A stretch of DNA of 64,000 nt, taken from positions 1-64,000 of IMG/VR virus record IMGVR_UViG_3300035189_000033; one strand, given 5' to 3'. The translations under genes and the position numbers were made by a program. Below the pieces are notes generated by a model. That model was not told where the DNA came from. It made no database searches and was given only the letters and a program-made list of their open reading frames with translations. Source of the DNA: a virus. This document shows positions 3,118-12,838 of the stretch, one piece after another (within the stretch, counting starts at the first letter, position 1; every line of letters starts with the position of its first letter).

Positions 3118-4476
3118 ATGAGCACCCGCCTCATCATCGGCGACTGCCGGGACGTGCTGCCAACGCTGGCCGCGGGCTCGGTGCAGTGCGTGGTGACCTC
3201 GCCGCCGTATTTCGGCCTGCGCGACTATGGCACGGGCGAATGGGCCGGCGGCGATCCGGCCTGCGATCACACCGACCGGGCTTATGGCAAGGGGCGCGGC
3301 GACGGTAAGTGGTTCGATGGTGGCAAGCCGCGCGAACTTGCCGAAGGACGCCCGTCGCTGGGCAGGAGTTGTCCGCGCTGTGGTGCGCAGCGTATCGACA
3401 GCCAGATCGGGCTGGAAGCGACGCCGGCGGAATACGTGGCGGAGATTGTTGCGGTGTTCCGGGAGGTTTGGCGGGTGCTGCGCGACGACGGCACGTGCTG
3501 GCTGAACCTGGGGGATAGCTACTCGAACGACACGAAATGGGGCGGGAGTACGAGCGGCAAGCATGTGACCGCCATGCACGGCGACACCGGCATCGGGCGA
3601 ACCAAGAAGACCACGGGCATGAAGCCGAAAGACCTGATGGGGATGCCCTGGCGCGTCGCCTTGGCGCTGCAAGCCGACGGCTGGTATCTGCGCCGCGACA
3701 TCATCTGGGCCAAGCCCAACCCGATGCCGGAATCAGTCACCGACCGCCCGACCACCGCGCATGAATACGTGTTCCTGCTGACCAAACGGGCGAAGTATTT
3801 CTACGACGCCGAGGCGGTGCGGGAAGATGCTGCGCCCGAAACTGCGACAAGATATGCGGCGGGATACAAAGTATTCGGGAGGGGTCAGTTCGAGGCAAGC
3901 CCCACTGATAAACGCGAGGCAAAGTCTATCCCAGCCGAAAAGTTGGCTCATATTGCCGGCCGCAACCTGCGCTCCGTCTGGACGATTACCACCGCGCCGT
4001 TCGCCGAGGCGCATTTCGCCACCTTCCCGCCGAAGCTCGCCGAGACCTGCATCCTGGCCGGTACGTCCGAACGCGGCGCCTGCCCGCAATGCGGCGCGGC
4101 CTGGGCGCGCGTGACAGAACGGACGACAGTTACCCCGGTCGATTACGAGGGCAAATACCTCGCTGCGGATAAGCAATCGTCAGGCCGTCGTGCCACGGCC
4201 AATGTCCGCGCAAGGCGCATGGCCGGTCAGGGGCACCACGACAATCCGTTCCCGACACCAAAGACCATCGGCTGGCGCCAGACCTGCCACTGCCCGCCCG
4301 CAGATCCCGTCCCCTGCGTCGTGCTCGACCCCTTCTCAGGCGCCGGCACCGTCGGGCTGGTCGCCGATCGCCTGCAACGCAACGCCATCCAGATCGAACT
4401 GAACGCCGACTACGCCGCCATGACCGAACAGCGCATCGTCCGCGACGCCGGCCTGTTCGCCGAGGTGGCGTCATGA
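3118..4476 (+). CDS. DNA methyltransferase, beta class (N4-C or N6-A)
   Basis: 452 residues. Motif IV, TSPPYFGLRDYG, sits at residues 27-38, and the S-adenosylmethionine-binding motif I, DPFSGAGTVGLVADRLQRNA, begins near residue 404. That order (catalytic motif first, FxGxG near the end) defines the beta class. The TSPPY form occurs in N4-cytosine and some N6-adenine enzymes. A middle region holds C-P-R-C near residue 86 and C-P-Q-C near 322, probable zinc ribbons. No restriction partner is visible, so it is likely an orphan enzyme for self-protection or regulation. It is not CcrM-like (that has DPPY). The end is a 26-base segment that recurs almost unchanged at the end of the next gene. Confidence 0.9.
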   Translation: MSTRLIIGDCRDVLPTLAAGSVQCVVTSPPYFGLRDYGTGEWAGGDPACDHTDRAYGKGRGDGKWFDGGKPRELAEGRPSLGRSCPRCGAQRIDSQIGLEATPAEYVAEIVAVFREVWRVLRDDGTCWLNLGDSYSNDTKWGGSTSGKHVTAMHGDTGIGRTKKTTGMKPKDLMGMPWRVALALQADGWYLRRDIIWAKPNPMPESVTDRPTTAHEYVFLLTKRAKYFYDAEAVREDAAPETATRYAAGYKVFGRGQFEASPTDKREAKSIPAEKLAHIAGRNLRSVWTITTAPFAEAHFATFPPKLAETCILAGTSERGACPQCGAAWARVTERTTVTPVDYEGKYLAADKQSSGRRATANVRARRMAGQGHHDNPFPTPKTIGWRQTCHCPPADPVPCVVLDPFSGAGTVGLVADRLQRNAIQIELNADYAAMTEQRIVRDAGLFAEVAS

Positions 4477-4478
4477 CC
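4453..4478 (+). repeat. repeated gene junction, copy 1
   Basis: 26 bases spanning the methyltransferase stop and the radical SAM start. It matches 5355-5380 at all but two adjacent positions (CC here, AT there). Both copies encode a C-terminal L-F-x-E-V-A-S followed by an overlapping ATGA, with GAGGTGG as ribosome binding site 4 bases before the ATG. Confidence 0.75.
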
Positions 4479-5378
4479 GGCTATTCCCTCGGCTCGTGGC
4501 CGGACGGGCTCGCCGAATGGACCGAGGGCGACACCGCCTTTCTGTCGATCGCGTTCACCTGGAAGCTCGATGATGCCTGGAGCAAGGCCGTCTACTACAA
4601 GGCGCTTGGCTATCGCGTCCGCGCCGGCGGGCCCGGCATCTTCACCCGCAGACATTACCTCGCGGATGTGGCGGAACTCGGCGGCGAGATCCCCGACGCC
4701 ATCGGCCGGCACAACCCCATGGCGACGATCGCCAGCCGCGGCTGCCCGGTGGGCTGCTGGTTCTGCATCGTGCCGAAGATGGAAGGGCGCGGATTCACGT
4801 TGCTGCCCGACTTCCCGGTGCGCCCGGTGCTCTGCGACAACAACCTGTCGGCGCTGCCGGCCGACTATCAGGATCACATCGTCGCCCGCTACCACGCCGC
4901 TGGCGTGCCGCTGCTCGATGCCAACTCGGGCTATGAGCCACGCACCTTCGATGCCGAGGTGCTGGCTCGCTGGGCGCCGATCAATCGCGGCCCCTGGCGC
5001 TTCGCCTATGACGACGCCGCCGACGGCCAACACGTCGCCCGCGTGATGCAGATGCTCGACCGGGCGGACGTCCCGGCCCGCCGCCGCCAGGTCTATGTGC
5101 TGATCGGCAATGAGCCGTTCGAGGCGTGCATGCACCGCATCCGCCAAGTCATCGGCTGGGGCGGCGAACCGTATGTGCAGCCGTACATGAAGCTGAACGC
5201 GCTGGTGCAACGCCCGCATGTCCGCTTCGACTGGACCGAGGCGCGCCTGAAAGCCGTGCAGCGGTGGGTCAACGGTCGGTTCTGGCGATACACTGATTTC
5301 AACGGATACAACTCGTCCGCTAAATCCGCGCCGACCGAACACATCACGGCTGATCTGTTCGATGAGGTGGCGTCATGA
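4473..5378 (+). CDS. radical SAM superfamily protein
   Basis: 301 residues, start ATG 4473 overlapping the methyltransferase stop. The motif RGCPVGCWFCIVPKMEG gives Cys91, Cys95 and Cys98 in the CX3CX2C spacing that binds the [4Fe-4S] cluster of radical SAM enzymes. Later segments (LLDANSGYEP, RFAYDDAADG, VYVLIGNEP) fit the strands of the TIM-barrel core. The substrate cannot be read from the sequence. Immediate linkage to a DNA methyltransferase makes a nucleic-acid modification role attractive but unproven. No SPASM or B12 domain is seen. Confidence 0.85.
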   Translation: MTGYSLGSWPDGLAEWTEGDTAFLSIAFTWKLDDAWSKAVYYKALGYRVRAGGPGIFTRRHYLADVAELGGEIPDAIGRHNPMATIASRGCPVGCWFCIVPKMEGRGFTLLPDFPVRPVLCDNNLSALPADYQDHIVARYHAAGVPLLDANSGYEPRTFDAEVLARWAPINRGPWRFAYDDAADGQHVARVMQMLDRADVPARRRQVYVLIGNEPFEACMHRIRQVIGWGGEPYVQPYMKLNALVQRPHVRFDWTEARLKAVQRWVNGRFWRYTDFNGYNSSAKSAPTEHITADLFDEVAS

Positions 5379-5380
5379 CC
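5355..5380 (+). repeat. repeated gene junction, copy 2
   Basis: Second copy of the segment at 4453-4478, at the junction of the radical SAM gene and the HTH gene. The pair suggests that one of the two cassettes arose or moved by recombination at the junction, or that this junction is kept because it sets coupled translation. Confidence 0.75.
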
Positions 5381-5695
5381 CGCTGGACCCCCGAACTCAT
5401 CGCGCAGATCCGCGCCCTCGCCGCACTCGGCTATTCGGCCAAGCAGGTGTCCTTCATCACCCGCACCAACCTCGGCACGCTCAACCACCAATGTCAGGAC
5501 AACGCCATCAGTTTCCAGCGCCTGCCGGCCAGCCGGAGGCCGAAGATCACACCCGACCAGATGCAGTCCGTCGATCCTGTGCTGACGTCGGAGGAGCGGC
5601 TGAGACGCCTCGCCCGCGCCGACCTCGACCACGAGATCGCCCTGGCCCGCGCCGAGGCCGCCACCGCGCCGCTGTTCCGCGGGGGCTTGCAATGA
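5375..5695 (+). CDS. small HTH protein resembling the GcrA N-terminal domain
   Basis: 106 residues, ATG overlapping the preceding stop. The first 45 residues form a probable helix-turn-helix: a W-T-P-E start and a G-Y-S-A-K-Q turn, the same layout as the DNA-binding domain of GcrA (W-T-x-E, G-x-S-A-x-Q). The C-terminal half is charged and helical. It lacks the Cys-rich C-terminal signature of GcrA. It may be a stand-alone DNA-binding regulator; similarity to GcrA is by eye only and could be a generic resolvase-type HTH. Confidence 0.65.
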   Translation: MTRWTPELIAQIRALAALGYSAKQVSFITRTNLGTLNHQCQDNAISFQRLPASRRPKITPDQMQSVDPVLTSEERLRRLARADLDHEIALARAEAATAPLFRGGLQ

Positions 5696-6819
5696 AAACC
5701 AAGCCCTCGGCCTGGATGCCGCTCTATGTCGGCGATTACCTGCGCGACACCGCGCACCTCTCGACCAGCGAGCACGGCGCGTATTTCCTGATGCTCATGC
5801 ACGCCTGGACGCACGGCGGCGAGCTGCCCGGCGACGGGCCGCGTCTGTGCATCATTACCAAGATGAGTGCGAAGGACTGGCGTCATTCGGGTGACATCCT
5901 GATGGCGTTTTTCCAGCGCCACGGCGCCATGCTGCGCCACAAGCGTCTCGATCTCGAACTCGCCAACGCCACGACGCTCACCGAGAGACGGCGAACGGCG
6001 GGGCGGCTGTCAGCAGAGGCTCGCGGCCGTCACCGGCAGAACGGAGAGACCCCACCATCACCCGAAAATAAGGAGGAAAAAATGAATATCTCTAGGAAGC
6101 AAAGCGACCGGGCCGAAAACATCCCTAACGTTAAATTGTGCGAACGATCAGCAAACGGCCAGCAAACCGTCAGCAAAACACGCGAAAAACGTGAACAAAA
6201 CGCCAGACCTTCACCTTCACCTTCACCAAGAAAGAAAGAAAAGAGGGCGGGACTTCGTCCCGTGGTCACCCTGGCGGGCGACCGACACGGAACCGACCCG
6301 CCTGCGAATCGATCGCGTTCGGGTGGCAATCGCGACGAAACCGAAGCCGTCGCCGGACTCGTGCTGCGTCCGCCGGACGCACCGGCGGCCCGCGCCGGCC
6401 CCGGACCGACCGCGATCCTCGAATGGGCGGTCGGCGTCTGGAACCGCGTCTGCGGCGGGCGGCTGAGCCCGGTGGTCAAGATCACCAATGCCCGCCGGGA
6501 TGCGTTCCTGCGACGCTGGCGCGACGATTTCGCCGAGGACGCGCAAGCCTGGGAACGGTTCTGCGAGCGCGTTGCGGCCTCGCCGTTCCTCACCGACGCC
6601 GAGGGCAAAAACCGCGCAAGATGGCGGGCAAACTTCGATTTCGTGCTGGAGCCGCGCAACCTCGTGCGCATCGAGGAAGGCCTCTGGGACCGCGCCGCAG
6701 ACCCGGAAAAAGCCGATCCGTGGGCGATCTTCGACGGAACGCCGGGCGAACCCGAACCCGATTACGACCTGGAGATGACCCGCGATGAGCATGGCGCTTT
6801 CCGCCCCCGCACGCACTGA
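5692..6819 (+). CDS. DUF1376 (YdaU-type) replication-associated protein
   Basis: 375 residues, ATG 5692 overlapping the previous stop. The N terminus (WMPLYVGDYLRDTAHLSTSE, then H-G-A-Y-F-L-M-L-M-H-A-W) is the DUF1376 signature, usually found next to phage replication or helicase-loader genes. Residues about 110-220 are a low-complexity, Lys/Arg/Ser/Pro-rich linker whose DNA is clearly richer in A than its neighbours. The C-terminal 150 residues (WAVGVWNRVCGG, WRANFDFVLEP) look like the partner-binding domain of phage primosome proteins. A role in replication initiation is inferred. Confidence 0.8.
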   Translation: MKTKPSAWMPLYVGDYLRDTAHLSTSEHGAYFLMLMHAWTHGGELPGDGPRLCIITKMSAKDWRHSGDILMAFFQRHGAMLRHKRLDLELANATTLTERRRTAGRLSAEARGRHRQNGETPPSPENKEEKMNISRKQSDRAENIPNVKLCERSANGQQTVSKTREKREQNARPSPSPSPRKKEKRAGLRPVVTLAGDRHGTDPPANRSRSGGNRDETEAVAGLVLRPPDAPAARAGPGPTAILEWAVGVWNRVCGGRLSPVVKITNARRDAFLRRWRDDFAEDAQAWERFCERVAASPFLTDAEGKNRARWRANFDFVLEPRNLVRIEEGLWDRAADPEKADPWAIFDGTPGEPEPDYDLEMTRDEHGAFRPRTH

Positions 6820-10231: not shown

Positions 10232-10504
10232 ATGGCTGGCAGCAAGCCGGGAGAGCGCAGAGGCGGTCGCGCTCCCGGCGTTCCGAACAAAAAAACCGCT
10301 GATGTCGCCGAGAAGCTTGCCGCGCTGGGCTGCGATCCGATTACCGGCATGGCGCACATCGCGATGGACAACAAAAATCCCCTCGATATTCGCGCGCGGA
10401 TGTATAGCGAACTGGCGCAGTACATCGCGCCCAAGCGCAAGGCGCTGGAACACTCGGCGCAGCCGGGCTTGATCGAGGCGCTGCTGGCGCGGATCGACGA
10501 CTGA
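10232..10504 (+). CDS. probable terminase small subunit-like / DNA-packaging protein, 90 aa
   Basis: The N terminus, KPGERRGGRAPGVPNKKT, is the G-R-x-x-G-x-P-N-K-x-T motif typical of short phage proteins encoded just before large terminases (DUF5681-like). A helical region follows (LDIRARMYSELAQYIAPKRK). Location four genes before the large terminase supports a role in genome recognition. At 90 residues it is shorter than most small terminases, so an accessory role is also possible. Confidence 0.6.
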   Translation: MAGSKPGERRGGRAPGVPNKKTADVAEKLAALGCDPITGMAHIAMDNKNPLDIRARMYSELAQYIAPKRKALEHSAQPGLIEALLARIDD

Positions 10505-10530
10505 CGGAGTAGACTGAGGAGCTGACACCG

Positions 10531-10698
10531 ATGTCCCTGCTGCTGATAATTGTCGTGCTGTTGCTGCTGTTCGGCGGAGGTGGCTTCTACGGCTACCGAT
10601 CGGGGTATTTCGGCGGCGTCAGTCCGCTGGCGATTGTGCTGGTGGTGGTGGTGCTGCTGCTGGTGTTCGGCGGCATCGGCTACCGGGGCGGCTGGTGA
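10531..10698 (+). CDS. two-helix membrane protein, 55 aa (copy 1)
   Basis: Starts MSLLLIIVVLLLLFGGGGFY, then G-Y-R-S-G, then a second hydrophobic helix rich in Val and Leu ending FGGIGYRGGW. Two membrane helices joined by a short Gly-rich turn resemble DUF3309-type proteins and small class II holins. The next gene begins with a nearly identical first helix, so this is a tandem duplication. TGATG overlap with that gene. Confidence 0.7.
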   Translation: MSLLLIIVVLLLLFGGGGFYGYRSGYFGGVSPLAIVLVVVVLLLVFGGIGYRGGW

Positions 10699-10985
10699 TG
10701 TCCCTGCTGCTCATCATTGTCGTGCTGCTGCTGCTGTTCGGCGGTGGCGGTTTCTACGGCTACCGCTCAGGCTGGTATGGCACGCCACCACCGCCGCCGC
10801 TGCCGCCCTATCCCGGCACCCAGACGCAGCCGCTGCCCGGCACCGCGCAGCCGCCGCCGTTGCCTGACAACCGCTACGGCGGCGAGGGCGGCATCAGTCC
10901 GGTCCTGGTGATCCTGCTCGTGCTGCTGCTGCTCGTGCTGCTGGGCGGTGGCTACGGGCTGTTTTATCACCGGGGGATGTACTGA
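10698..10985 (+). CDS. two-helix membrane protein, 95 aa (copy 2, with Pro-rich insert)
   Basis: The first 25 residues repeat copy 1 almost exactly. A Pro/Gln/Thr-rich loop of about 40 residues (PPPPPLPPYPGTQTQPLPG) then separates it from a second helix of Val/Leu. The loop is long enough to cross into or span the periplasm. Start ATG 10698 overlaps the previous stop; a GTG at 10695 is in frame. Possible lysis or envelope role by topology only. Confidence 0.7.
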   Translation: MSLLLIIVVLLLLFGGGGFYGYRSGWYGTPPPPPLPPYPGTQTQPLPGTAQPPPLPDNRYGGEGGISPVLVILLVLLLLVLLGGGYGLFYHRGMY

Positions 10986-10986
10986 G

Positions 10987-11220
10987 ATGCCTGTTCAATA
11001 CATAGCCAGCATGATGTGGTCGACTGACGCGCCAGCTGTGACGACGTGGCACGGCCCCGGCACGCTGGCGACTGTATCGGCTGACGGCGCCGTCGCGATT
11101 GACTGGCCCGCCGTCGAGGCCACCGCCGAAGATCCTGCGTCCGACAAGATCACCTGGGGCGTCGCTAAACTGCTGCTGGCGGCGCGGGACGGCACCGCGA
11201 AACCGCTCGAAGCCCAATGA
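10987..11220 (+). CDS. hypothetical protein, 77 aa
   Basis: ATG 10987 lies 2 bases after the previous stop. The sequence has short beta strands (TLATVSADGAVAIDW) and an acidic, Ala-rich end. It sits immediately before the large terminase. Not recognised. Confidence 0.6.
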   Translation: MPVQYIASMMWSTDAPAVTTWHGPGTLATVSADGAVAIDWPAVEATAEDPASDKITWGVAKLLLAARDGTAKPLEAQ

Positions 11221-11261
11221 GCAAGGATTTGGCGCCCGACGAACTCGCGCGGCTGCTGTGA
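11217..11261 (+). CDS. 14-codon linking open frame before the terminase
   Basis: ATG 11217 overlaps the stop of the previous gene (ATGA), and the TGA at 11259-11261 overlaps the GTG at which the terminase frame can start. It reads MSKDLAPDELARLL, which resembles a terminase N terminus. It may be a coupling peptide, or the true N terminus separated from the rest by a one-base shift. Confidence 0.35.
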   Translation: MSKDLAPDELARLL

Positions 11262-12838
11262 CGGCGAGTGACACCGACGCCGCGCTGGTCCGCCGGCTCC
11301 GCCGCCTGCGTGGCGACCTGCCGCTCTACGCCGCCGAGTGTCTGCGCATCCGCGACAAAGCCGGCGCGCTGGTGCCGCTCGAACTGAACGCCGCACAGCG
11401 CTTCCTCCACGCGCGGATGGAGGACCAAAAGCGGCGCACCGGCAAAGTGCGGTGCCTGATCGGCAAAGGGCGACAGACCGGCGGATCAACCTATGTCGGC
11501 GCGCGGTTCTATCACCGCACCTCGATGCGCCCGGGCGTCAAATGCTACATCCTCTGCCACGAGCAGGAAGCGTCCGACACGCTGTTCGACATGGTCGACT
11601 GTTTCCACGCCAACAACCCCCTGGCCCCGTCCACGGGCGCCTCCAACGCCAAGGAACTGATCTTCAATAAGCTGGGCAGCGGCTATTCCGTCGGCACCGC
11701 CGGCACCAAGGCGGCCGGGCGCAGCTCGACCAACCATCTGCTGCACTGGTCCGAGGTCGCCTACTCGCCGAACGCCGCAGGCCACTCCGCCGGGCTGGTG
11801 CAGACCGTGCCCGACCTGCCCGGCACCGAGATCGTCAAGGAGAGCACCGGCAACGGGCCCGAGGGCGAATTCTACGAGTCCTGGCAGGTCGCGGAAGCCG
11901 GGATGGGCGACTACGAGGCGCTGTTTCTGCCGTGGTTCTGGAGCGAGGATTACGCGCGCGACGTCGAGACAGGGTGCCATCTCGACGAAGAAGAACGCCG
12001 CTACGCCGGCCTGCACAAGCTGTCGCTGGGACAAATGGCGTGGAGAAGGGCGAAGATTTCCGAACTGAAAAGCGAGATCCTGTTTCGGCGGGAATATCCA
12101 GCCACCGCGACCGAGATGTGGGCAGCGACTGGCCGACAATCCTACATCGACCCCGAAACCGTGCTGACCGCGCGCAAGCACAGTGCCGAGGGGCTCGGCC
12201 CGCTGGTGATCGGCGTCGACCCCGCGAGATTCGGGGATGACCGATTCAGCGTGGCATGGCGGCGCGGGCGCAAGGTCAGCAAAGTGGAAAGCCGGATCCA
12301 CATCGGCACGACTGAGGCTTTAGCTTGGCTGCGCGACATCATCGACCAGGACAAACCCGCGCGCATGTTCATCGATGCGGGCGGCGGCGGTGACCGGCTG
12401 TTCGACCTGCTGCACGCCTGGGGCAAGCCGTATTCCGACGTGGTCGTGCTGGTGAACTTCGGATCGAGCCCGCAGACCGAGGTCTTGATCGCCGAGGACG
12501 GCACGCGCCGGGCCGGGCCGAAGAACCGGCGCGCGGAGATGTGGATGCGACTCAAGGAGTGGCTGGGCCAGACCGGCGGTGCCGACATCCCCGACAGCGA
12601 CGCGCTCCAGGCCGACGCGATCGGGCCGGGCTATCACTACTCGACCACCGACCAGCGCCTCGTGCTGGAGAGCAAGGAACAGATGCGGGCGCGCGGCGTG
12701 CGAAGCCCGGACGAGGCCGATGCGGTGGTGCTGACGTTCGCCGAACCGGTGAAGGAACGACCGGCCGACCGACGGCCGCCGATGGTGCGCACCGTGCAGG
12801 CATCGGGCGAGGCGTCAACCGCGTGGCTGGGGGCGTAG
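11258..12838 (+). CDS. terL: terminase large subunit
   Basis: 526 residues from GTG 11258. ATPase domain: deviant Walker A GKGRQTGGST at 69-78, then H-W-S-E at 163-166 as the Walker B/glutamate region. RNase H-like nuclease domain: VIGVDPARFGDD with Asp321, RMFIDAGGGG with Asp373 and SPDEAD with Asp488, giving the expected acidic triad. It would drive ATP-dependent packaging into the procapsid at the portal and cut the concatemer. The start is uncertain because no ATG is available in frame; see the linking frame at 11217. Gene order before the P22-type portal fits. Confidence 0.92.
   Translation: MTASDTDAALVRRLRRLRGDLPLYAAECLRIRDKAGALVPLELNAAQRFLHARMEDQKRRTGKVRCLIGKGRQTGGSTYVGARFYHRTSMRPGVKCYILCHEQEASDTLFDMVDCFHANNPLAPSTGASNAKELIFNKLGSGYSVGTAGTKAAGRSSTNHLLHWSEVAYSPNAAGHSAGLVQTVPDLPGTEIVKESTGNGPEGEFYESWQVAEAGMGDYEALFLPWFWSEDYARDVETGCHLDEEERRYAGLHKLSLGQMAWRRAKISELKSEILFRREYPATATEMWAATGRQSYIDPETVLTARKHSAEGLGPLVIGVDPARFGDDRFSVAWRRGRKVSKVESRIHIGTTEALAWLRDIIDQDKPARMFIDAGGGGDRLFDLLHAWGKPYSDVVVLVNFGSSPQTEVLIAEDGTRRAGPKNRRAEMWMRLKEWLGQTGGADIPDSDALQADAIGPGYHYSTTDQRLVLESKEQMRARGVRSPDEADAVVLTFAEPVKERPADRRPPMVRTVQASGEASTAWLGA

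Follow-up and report, generated by a model that had tools for sequence, protein, structure and literature searches.

The radical SAM gene and its product

The window analyzed here, the first 64 kb of the 86,538-base IMG/VR virus record IMGVR_UViG_3300035189_000033, carries an open reading frame (ORF) at positions 4473 to 5378 that encodes a radical S-adenosylmethionine (SAM) protein and overlaps a DNA methyltransferase gene lying directly upstream. An earlier note on this DNA had described the two as directly coupled and had raised the possibility of a two-step modification of nucleic acid. We find that the ORF is a real gene of the proposed family and that its coupling to the methyltransferase is real but local. 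The features that bear on this gene are as follows.

3118 to 4476, + strand: N6/N4 DNA methyltransferase, 452 amino acids (PF01555, E 3.4e-36; phrog_67, E 1.3e-61)
4473 to 5378, + strand: radical SAM protein of the phrog_9298 type, ATG start, 301 amino acids
4473 to 4476, + strand: ATGA, 4 nucleotides shared by the methyltransferase stop codon and the radical SAM start codon
4743 to 4766, + strand: CPVGCWFC, the [4Fe-4S]-binding CX3CX2C motif, residues 91-98
5346 to 5375, + strand: TADLFDEVAS, tail of the radical SAM protein and site of the clamp-motif-like QxxLF of relatives, here lacking the Q

Two particulars of the earlier description, the intact CX3CX2C motif (CPVGCWFC, residues 91-98) and the ATGA shared by the methyltransferase frame and the radical SAM start, were confirmed. 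The methyltransferase scored 125.7 bits against PF01555 (N6_N4_Mtase), above the cut-off of 26.7. A scan of viral contigs in IMG/VR recovered 78 relatives of the radical SAM protein, with 47-86% identity. The gene is under purifying selection, with ratios of nonsynonymous to synonymous substitution (dN/dS) of 0.03-0.45 among the listed pairs with finite dS; dS was saturated in 2 of the 11 pairs involving the window. The three motif cysteines are invariant across 64 aligned sequences, comprising the window protein and 63 of the 78 relatives after exclusion of truncated, over-long and near-duplicate rows. A profile search, proposed earlier as a check, agreed in part with a radical SAM assignment: the phrog_9298 profile ('radical SAM domain protein') matched with an E value of 3.7e-13, whereas the match to PF04055 (E 0.0032, 18.1 bits) fell below the 29.5-bit cut-off. 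The PF04055 model misses divergent radical SAM members.

The window protein is a compact member of phrog_9298, a large phage family with 485 to 537 relatives per scan and records from phages of Bacteroides, Phocaeicola, Marinitoga, Methanomassiliicoccales and Oscillospiraceae. Aligned by hhalign, the window clade and the wider family matched at 99.7% (E 1.8e-25, 243 columns), and 11 aligned rows had in common with the window protein F28, G53, D75, G90, the three cysteines, D122, N124, G153, D180, Y208 and R222. The stretch preceding a common FLS-AFTW strand is about 22 residues long in the window clade, as opposed to about 29-60 in six distant proteins.

An AlphaFold2 (AF2) model built from the 64 rows (mean predicted local distance difference test score, pLDDT, 91.5; predicted template modeling score, pTM, 0.85) has the radical SAM core fold, with VIA Z scores of up to 15.7. 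Foldseek matched the model to MgmA (E 9.6e-6) and RimO (E 1.8e-4), and VIA aligned residues ~5-285 with AprD4 (Z 15.7), MgmA (14.9), TsrM (14.7) and MiaB (13.5). With rows differing by at most 1 Z counted as tied, AprD4, a sugar enzyme, shares first place with MgmA, which was also the one weak match (E 0.08) of a sequence search among solved structures. The fold therefore lies near the B12-type and methylthiotransferase branch, with differences from both groups. B12-type enzymes (MgmA, TsrM, OxsB) and AprD4 share the overall fold over residues ~5-285 but have chains of 417-729 residues, compared with 301 here; the window protein matches no B12-binding Pfam family at E <= 1 and its N-terminal domain is short. 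The methylthiotransferases MiaB and RimO align with Z of about 13, and their models TIGR00089 and TIGR01125 match weakly over the motif stretch at scores far below their cut-offs (9.9 bits versus 251 and 10.9 versus 357). In MiaB and RimO an auxiliary cluster is bound by three cysteines near the N-terminus; the window protein has no cysteine ahead of residue 91 and thus no second cluster of this type. Because the N-terminal domain is short and offers no cysteine for a second cluster, simple radical chemistry, that is, radical abstraction or rearrangement, would be likelier than methylthiolation or B12-dependent methylation.

The radical SAM protein matched none of the PADLOC defense models, viperins included, at E <= 0.1, and on this absence of a hit a known defense system was set aside. 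Among the papers listed by our searches of the open-access literature there was no study of this radical SAM family or of a clamp-bound radical SAM enzyme, in keeping with the earlier remark that radical SAM enzymes of phages are poorly characterized. Two reports bear on phage radical SAM proteins: 11 and 12 such proteins, a number termed highly unusual, are described for two Campylobacter phages (PMC2853527), and a radical SAM protein is noted in alphaproteobacterial phages of cluster K, where QueC is also present (PMC10783043).

C-terminal tails of the clade

The C-terminus is disordered in the AF2 model (tail pLDDT 53-59), and many relatives end in YDEQQGLFV or variants of it. Such endings resemble the motif by which proteins bind the bacterial sliding clamp. 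The consensus is given as QL[S/D]LF, with QLGLF in Escherichia coli Pol II, in PMC3716654; PMC4549789 describes a C-terminal QLxLF in which Q and the hydrophobic positions 4-5 are kept, and a better fit to the consensus in E. coli motifs than in those of the alphaproteobacterium Acidiphilium. The IS1634 transposase (PMC4549789) and Pol II (PMC3716654) share with the clade a C-terminal, loose Q-x-x-L-F-like stretch and bear no catalytic relation to it; the clade tails are clamp-motif-like by sequence and lack the exact consensus.

An 88% identity filter left 63 non-redundant rows for the clade, and tails were counted in 59 of these, rows that were split, fused or cut off (L004, L023, L066, L075 and L077) being removed where present. 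Within the last 20 residues, a strict pattern, Q.[SDG][LM]F, occurred in 20 of the 59 tails and a relaxed pattern, Q..[LM][FILVMWY], in 31, as against means of 0.04 and 1.2 in shuffled tails. Other genes of the same loci, taken from a crude ORF caller so that some are not genes (467 of at least 100 amino acids, 544 of at least 80), had the strict pattern in 0/544 and the relaxed pattern in 12/544. Hence the relaxed motif stands above controls in the clade (31/59 versus 12/544). With one member per 70%-identity cluster, about 7.6 of 14.8 still had the relaxed motif. The motif is realized by 16 different words, namely QQGLF (15 tails), QEGLF (2) and 14 singles such as QIPLI, QTDLW, QASLF and QMELV, and its codons vary silently, with 10 CAA and 10 CAG at the first position.

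These tails might instead be a by-product of the ribosome-binding site of the next gene, AGGGG or AAGGA lying within CAG-GGG codons, or simply an inherited C-terminus. Many do encode a Shine-Dalgarno-like stretch ahead of an overlapping start, and the strict motif is found in 16 of 39 tails with an overlapping next start but only 4 of 20 without. The relaxed motif, however, is about equally frequent with overlap (21/39) and without (10/20), and among 255 control genes with overlapping junctions 0 had the strict and 8 the relaxed motif. Furthermore, L016 (CAA TCT GGA TTA TTT) has the motif without a G-run, and words as different as QIPLI and QTDLW occur. We consider a by-product distinctly unlikely as an explanation of the tails.

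Other observations weigh against a clamp-binding function. Both patterns were set after the tails had been inspected, the exact published consensus QL[SD]LF occurs in 0 of 59 clade tails, and the bias of the strict motif toward overlapping junctions belongs here as well. The rows are related, and on a tree of 58 rows built without the tail (L072 also excluded) tail state amounts to just 11 changes. The window tail itself has no Q, several of its tree neighbors likewise, and from several members of the clade the motif is missing entirely. As a rule the QxxLF-type tail is a feature of the window clade and absent from the wider phrog_9298 family, where 0 of 151 tails had the strict and 4 of 151 the relaxed motif. 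Since the wider family and some clade members do without the motif, clamp docking cannot be essential.

A gene for a clamp of the phage's own (PF00712) was found in 1 of 51 records, not the window's, with the reservation that records may be fragments; the host clamp would therefore be the target. This search and the record-wide searches for PF01555 and PAPS reductase below used the 50 longest of the 78 relatives' records. Methyltransferases of the same contexts also show an excess of the relaxed motif (13/93 versus 49/2053 other genes, p = 1.2e-6), and the strict motif occurred in 2/93 versus 7/2053 (p = 0.05). Among homologues of the window methyltransferase, 11 of 69 distinct tails had the relaxed motif and 0 the strict one. 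Phage methyltransferases of several classes end in tails such as QLGLF, QTNLF, QISLF, QGALF, QGVLF and QGTLF (L451, L435, L395, L383, L480 and others; L011:7087-7992).

The methyltransferase as a neighbor within the clade

Homologues of the window methyltransferase were detected by blastp in 2 of the 78 loci. Iterated home-made profiles, applied to 79 loci with the window included, placed a methyltransferase-like ORF within 1.5 kb of the radical SAM gene in 6 (one a weak fragment), within 4 kb in 11 and anywhere in 16. These profiles missed a D12-class methyltransferase that Pfam places directly upstream in L011. In all, a methyltransferase of whatever class lies within 1.5 kb in 6 of the 78 relatives, the kinds being C5, D12 and N6/N4 plus one weak fragment, and L074 is the sole relative with the same N6/N4 kind within this distance, ~0.35 kb upstream. 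A less sensitive simple profile search had put the figure at 2/78; our weighing of the competing explanations is unchanged by the rise to 6/78 because the pairing is still a minority arrangement with mixed classes.

Immediate adjacency gave a similar picture. A methyltransferase occupies the position directly upstream (-1) in 1 of 62 clade loci, the window itself, versus 11/828 in the background (p = 0.58; home-made profiles, blind to L011). By Pfam, upstream neighbors of methyltransferase type were one N6_N4 (the window) and one D12 (n = 62), and those downstream one each of C5, N6_Mtase and MTS (n = 63). The commonest immediate neighbors were RusA upstream (3/62) and DUF1376 downstream (4/63), and once the overlapping-frame clusters of the gene itself were set aside no neighbor cluster occurred in more than 10 of the 78 loci. 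A 4-nucleotide upstream overlap was present in 28 of 70 loci, window included, whatever ORF stood upstream (the upstream ORF was picked mechanically, and 9 near-duplicates judged by eye were left out). Because this overlap is common, it is in itself weak evidence of partnership.

The co-occurrence that the earlier note had proposed as a check was not the rule. PF01555 matched anywhere in 9 of 50 records of relatives versus 3 of 37 terminase-matched records (the window's own included), and in the reverse direction a radical SAM relative was present in 0 of 80 loci of window-methyltransferase homologues, with flanks of up to 6 kb. The nearest phage (locus L004, record G002) has the radical SAM gene and no PF01555 match. 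Direct coupling as a conserved unit thus did not hold, with a methyltransferase within 1.5 kb in 6/78, and the methyltransferase as an obligate partner was rejected for the clade; in this phage it is an operon neighbor. PAPS reductase was likewise rejected as a clade partner, with matches in 3 of 51 records, 1 of them above cut-off, and at 1 of 62 upstream positions (E 0.0004).

In L056 the gene directly downstream of the radical SAM gene (L056:2436-3428) encodes a DUF5131 protein (PF07505, E 5.2e-85), which we take to belong to a cysteine-motif phage family that is radical SAM-like.

Neighborhoods in the wider family

For the wider family, the best 80 relatives of each scan were kept, and 152 of 234 loci remained after an 88% identity filter. 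Here a methyltransferase was in excess at -1 (15/152 versus 50/2310 at offsets 3-12, p = 5e-6) and, less markedly, directly downstream at +1 (8/149 versus the same 50/2310, p = 0.02). A Pfam census of 132 of the 152 upstream neighbors counted, among the matches listed, 8 N6_N4_Mtase, 8 PAPS_reduct and 7 C5 DNA_methylase, the next families having 2. Downstream, the matches listed included 5 C5, 2 N6_N4 and 1 D12 of 115 (taken from 140 listed, other-strand genes being dropped but for one). Six genes away the best 25 of 72 families included 2 MT-A70, 2 PAPS_reduct and 1 C5 of 131 (from 223, same strand), a control that differs from the upstream set in strand choice. PAPS reductase genes, such as L430:9150-9989 and L499:9022-9990, lie directly upstream of radical SAM genes of the wider family. 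On a FastTree tree of 215 rows, adjacency at +1 or -1, present in 23 rows, requires at least 20 changes. When every other gene of at least 120 amino acids served as an anchor, the adjacency rate was 21/152 versus 81/1970 (p = 5e-6). The methyltransferase link of the wider family is thus recurrent and loose, and involves unrelated methyltransferase classes.

In the Oscillospiraceae phage PV036431.1 (L094:6782-9128), a DNA methyltransferase gene lies upstream of a distant radical SAM relative and overlaps it by 20 nucleotides, in the same order as in the window, and a further methyltransferase-like ORF lies downstream. A gene at L491 6424-7452, at +1 in 6 loci, looked clamp-like; it had no Pfam match and was dropped as a candidate clamp neighbor of the wider family.

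Several of these findings are those expected if the two-step modification proposed in the earlier note took place, with the radical SAM enzyme and the adjoining methyltransferase working in sequence on one base: the 4-nucleotide overlap in the window, the -1 excess in the wider family with its at least 20 tree changes, the overlapping pair in PV036431 and the D12-class gene directly upstream in L011. The window's own clade does not bear this out, with 1/62 at -1 (by profiles that missed L011), a methyltransferase within 1.5 kb in just 6/78 relatives, a closest phage lacking a PF01555 match and a reverse test of 0/80, and the stricter anchor control, described below, gave p = 0.07. The methyltransferases that adjoin the family are, moreover, of unrelated classes, which speaks against a single invariant two-step reaction. 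The data lend no support to a two-step modification with this methyltransferase as obligate partner, and sequential action of the two enzymes on one base appears very unlikely.

Proposed activity

In enzymes of the radical SAM superfamily, a [4Fe-4S] cluster cleaves SAM to a 5'-deoxyadenosyl radical, which abstracts hydrogen. We interpret the protein tentatively, with somewhat less than even confidence, as a radical SAM enzyme acting on DNA and clamp-docked in many relatives. Bound by CX3CX2C, the cluster would cleave SAM, and the resulting 5'-deoxyadenosyl radical would take a hydrogen from the substrate. Through the clamp-motif-like stretch on its disordered tail, the enzyme would attach to the beta clamp of the host at the replication fork and act there on DNA as a stand-alone phage enzyme, whose gene lies beside different genes in different phages. 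DNA would be the most likely substrate because about half of the clade has clamp-motif-like tails and because methyltransferases and PAPS reductases are the commonest neighbors in the wider family. The purpose might be anti-restriction or repair. Of the earlier interpretation, an intact radical SAM gene beside a DNA methyltransferase survives, with some reason to expect action on DNA, and conserved coupling does not.

If the clade is indeed tethered to the sliding clamp, the substrate would be narrowed to DNA at the fork. The methyltransferase tails (13/93 versus 49/2053) would suggest a general phage way of placing DNA-modifying enzymes on fresh DNA. In its most specific form, the proposal is that alphaproteobacterial phages encode a clamp-docked (QxxLF) radical SAM enzyme that alters bases of new phage DNA beside any methyltransferase, as one of several clamp-riding phage DNA modifiers; taken whole, this we regard as unlikely.

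Action on DNA is itself opposed by two results beyond those concerning the tails. The fold matches span enzymes with sugar, protein, amino acid and RNA substrates, and the fold therefore names no substrate. Moreover, when the anchors were other gene families recurring in the same wider-family loci, methyltransferase adjacency was 21/152 versus 17/203 (p = 0.07), so that much of the methyltransferase excess may belong to the region.

A metabolic or host-modifying accessory gene, whose product has a small molecule or a protein as its target in lysogeny or infection and whose neighbors reflect phage mosaicism, would fit the low recurrence of neighbor clusters (none in over 10 of the 78 clade loci), the scarcity of shared neighbor families (at most 3/62 upstream and 4/63 downstream by Pfam), the stand-alone copies in Marinitoga and Methanomassiliicoccales viruses and the sugar substrate of the highest-Z fold match, tied with MgmA. 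It gives no account of the tail statistics or of the upstream excess of methyltransferases and PAPS reductases in the wider family, and we judge it a serious if somewhat unlikely alternative. A DNA-repair enzyme, similar in role to photoproduct lyase and carried to lesions by the clamp, would suit both clamp docking and replication-type neighbors. Spore photoproduct lyase, however, ranks only 50th among the fold matches (Z 7.5), far below the B12-type and MiaB rows, which makes such a role highly improbable.

Distribution of the gene

Nearest to the window among phages is L004/G002, whose radical SAM protein is 86% and terminase 76% identical. The control anchor in the window was the following gene.

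11138 to 12838, + strand: terminase large subunit (phrog_2, E 4.2e-29)

The terminase-matched records number 37 (the window's, G002 and 35 records of 80 terminase loci), and only 2, one of them the window's own, have the radical SAM gene, which is therefore accessory. In L004, an IS200/IS605 element (L004:8765-10409, G002) interrupts the radical SAM gene beyond about codon 245. The element encodes Y1_Tnp (PF01797) and a TnpB-like protein (PF01385/PF07282), and the C-terminal part of the gene follows at 10463-10629. A search of this insert with Rfam gave two matches, each below the gathering score. The gene stands alone in a Marinitoga virus and a Methanomassiliicoccales virus.

Radical SAM relatives were also present at 12 loci in bacterial genomes, 10 of them bearing names that we take to be those of alphaproteobacteria, one belonging to a Dehalococcoidia metagenome-assembled genome (MAG) and one named just 'bacterium'. 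Rhizobium sp. BK313 and Methylobacterium haplocladii are among the bacteria with a genomic copy. The MAG copy (G096:C2:717820-718688) consists of two overlapping frames covering profile positions 4-156 and 151-286 and is broken or misassembled. In a chromosomal survey at E 1e-3, matches turned up in 4 of 397 genomes from a single order and, at the level of the phylum, in 17 of 398. Full-length copies numbered 3 and 2, respectively, all in genomes among the 12 bacterial loci; the remaining matches were short and centered on the cysteine motif, together with a remnant (G570) and a partial match (G550). An ordinary chromosomal gene was rejected on these figures (3/397 and 2/398). Plasmids gave no match to the gene. 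In 11 bacterial genomes the gene had no phrog_2 terminase match at a distance of 10 kb or less, which lends no support to a prophage setting for the genome copies.

Gene junctions and neighboring genes

Elsewhere around the radical SAM gene, the window contains the following features.

1468 to 2667, + strand: ParB-like protein (phrog_1033, E 7.1e-15)
4462 to 4478, + strand: junction repeat, copy 1, GAGGTGGCGTCATGACC, at the methyltransferase/radical SAM boundary
5364 to 5380, + strand: junction repeat, copy 2, GAGGTGGCGTCATGACC, at the radical SAM/next ORF boundary
5375 to 5695, + strand: next ORF, 106 amino acids, without family match
5692 to 6819, + strand: DUF1376/primosomal-type replication protein (PF07120, E 4.2e-18)

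The 3' end of the radical SAM gene overlaps the next ORF (5375) in the same manner as its start overlaps the methyltransferase. An exact 17-nucleotide repeat, containing a Shine-Dalgarno-like stretch and the ATGA overlap, lies at both ends of the gene, and the codons ahead of the two copies are similar (LFAEVAS and LFDEVAS). A search with a 16-nucleotide form allowing up to 3 mismatches found two matches, both exact, where 1.0 was expected. Since 27 of 100 shuffles gave at least two, the count alone is unremarkable; the exactness and positions are what is notable. In 39 clade loci with a 4-nucleotide 3' overlap (15 near-duplicates left out), start and stop junctions of the same locus agreed at 5.90 of 16 positions versus 4.96 in shuffled loci (0 of 2000 shuffles), a likeness for part of which base composition could account. 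This likeness would fit the insertion of individual genes at boundaries that are short and conserved. Farther downstream, two adjoining short ORFs of membrane type (10531-10698 and 10695-10985) begin with near-identical residues (MSLLLIIVVLLLLFGGGGFYGYRSG) and are likely a tandem duplication.

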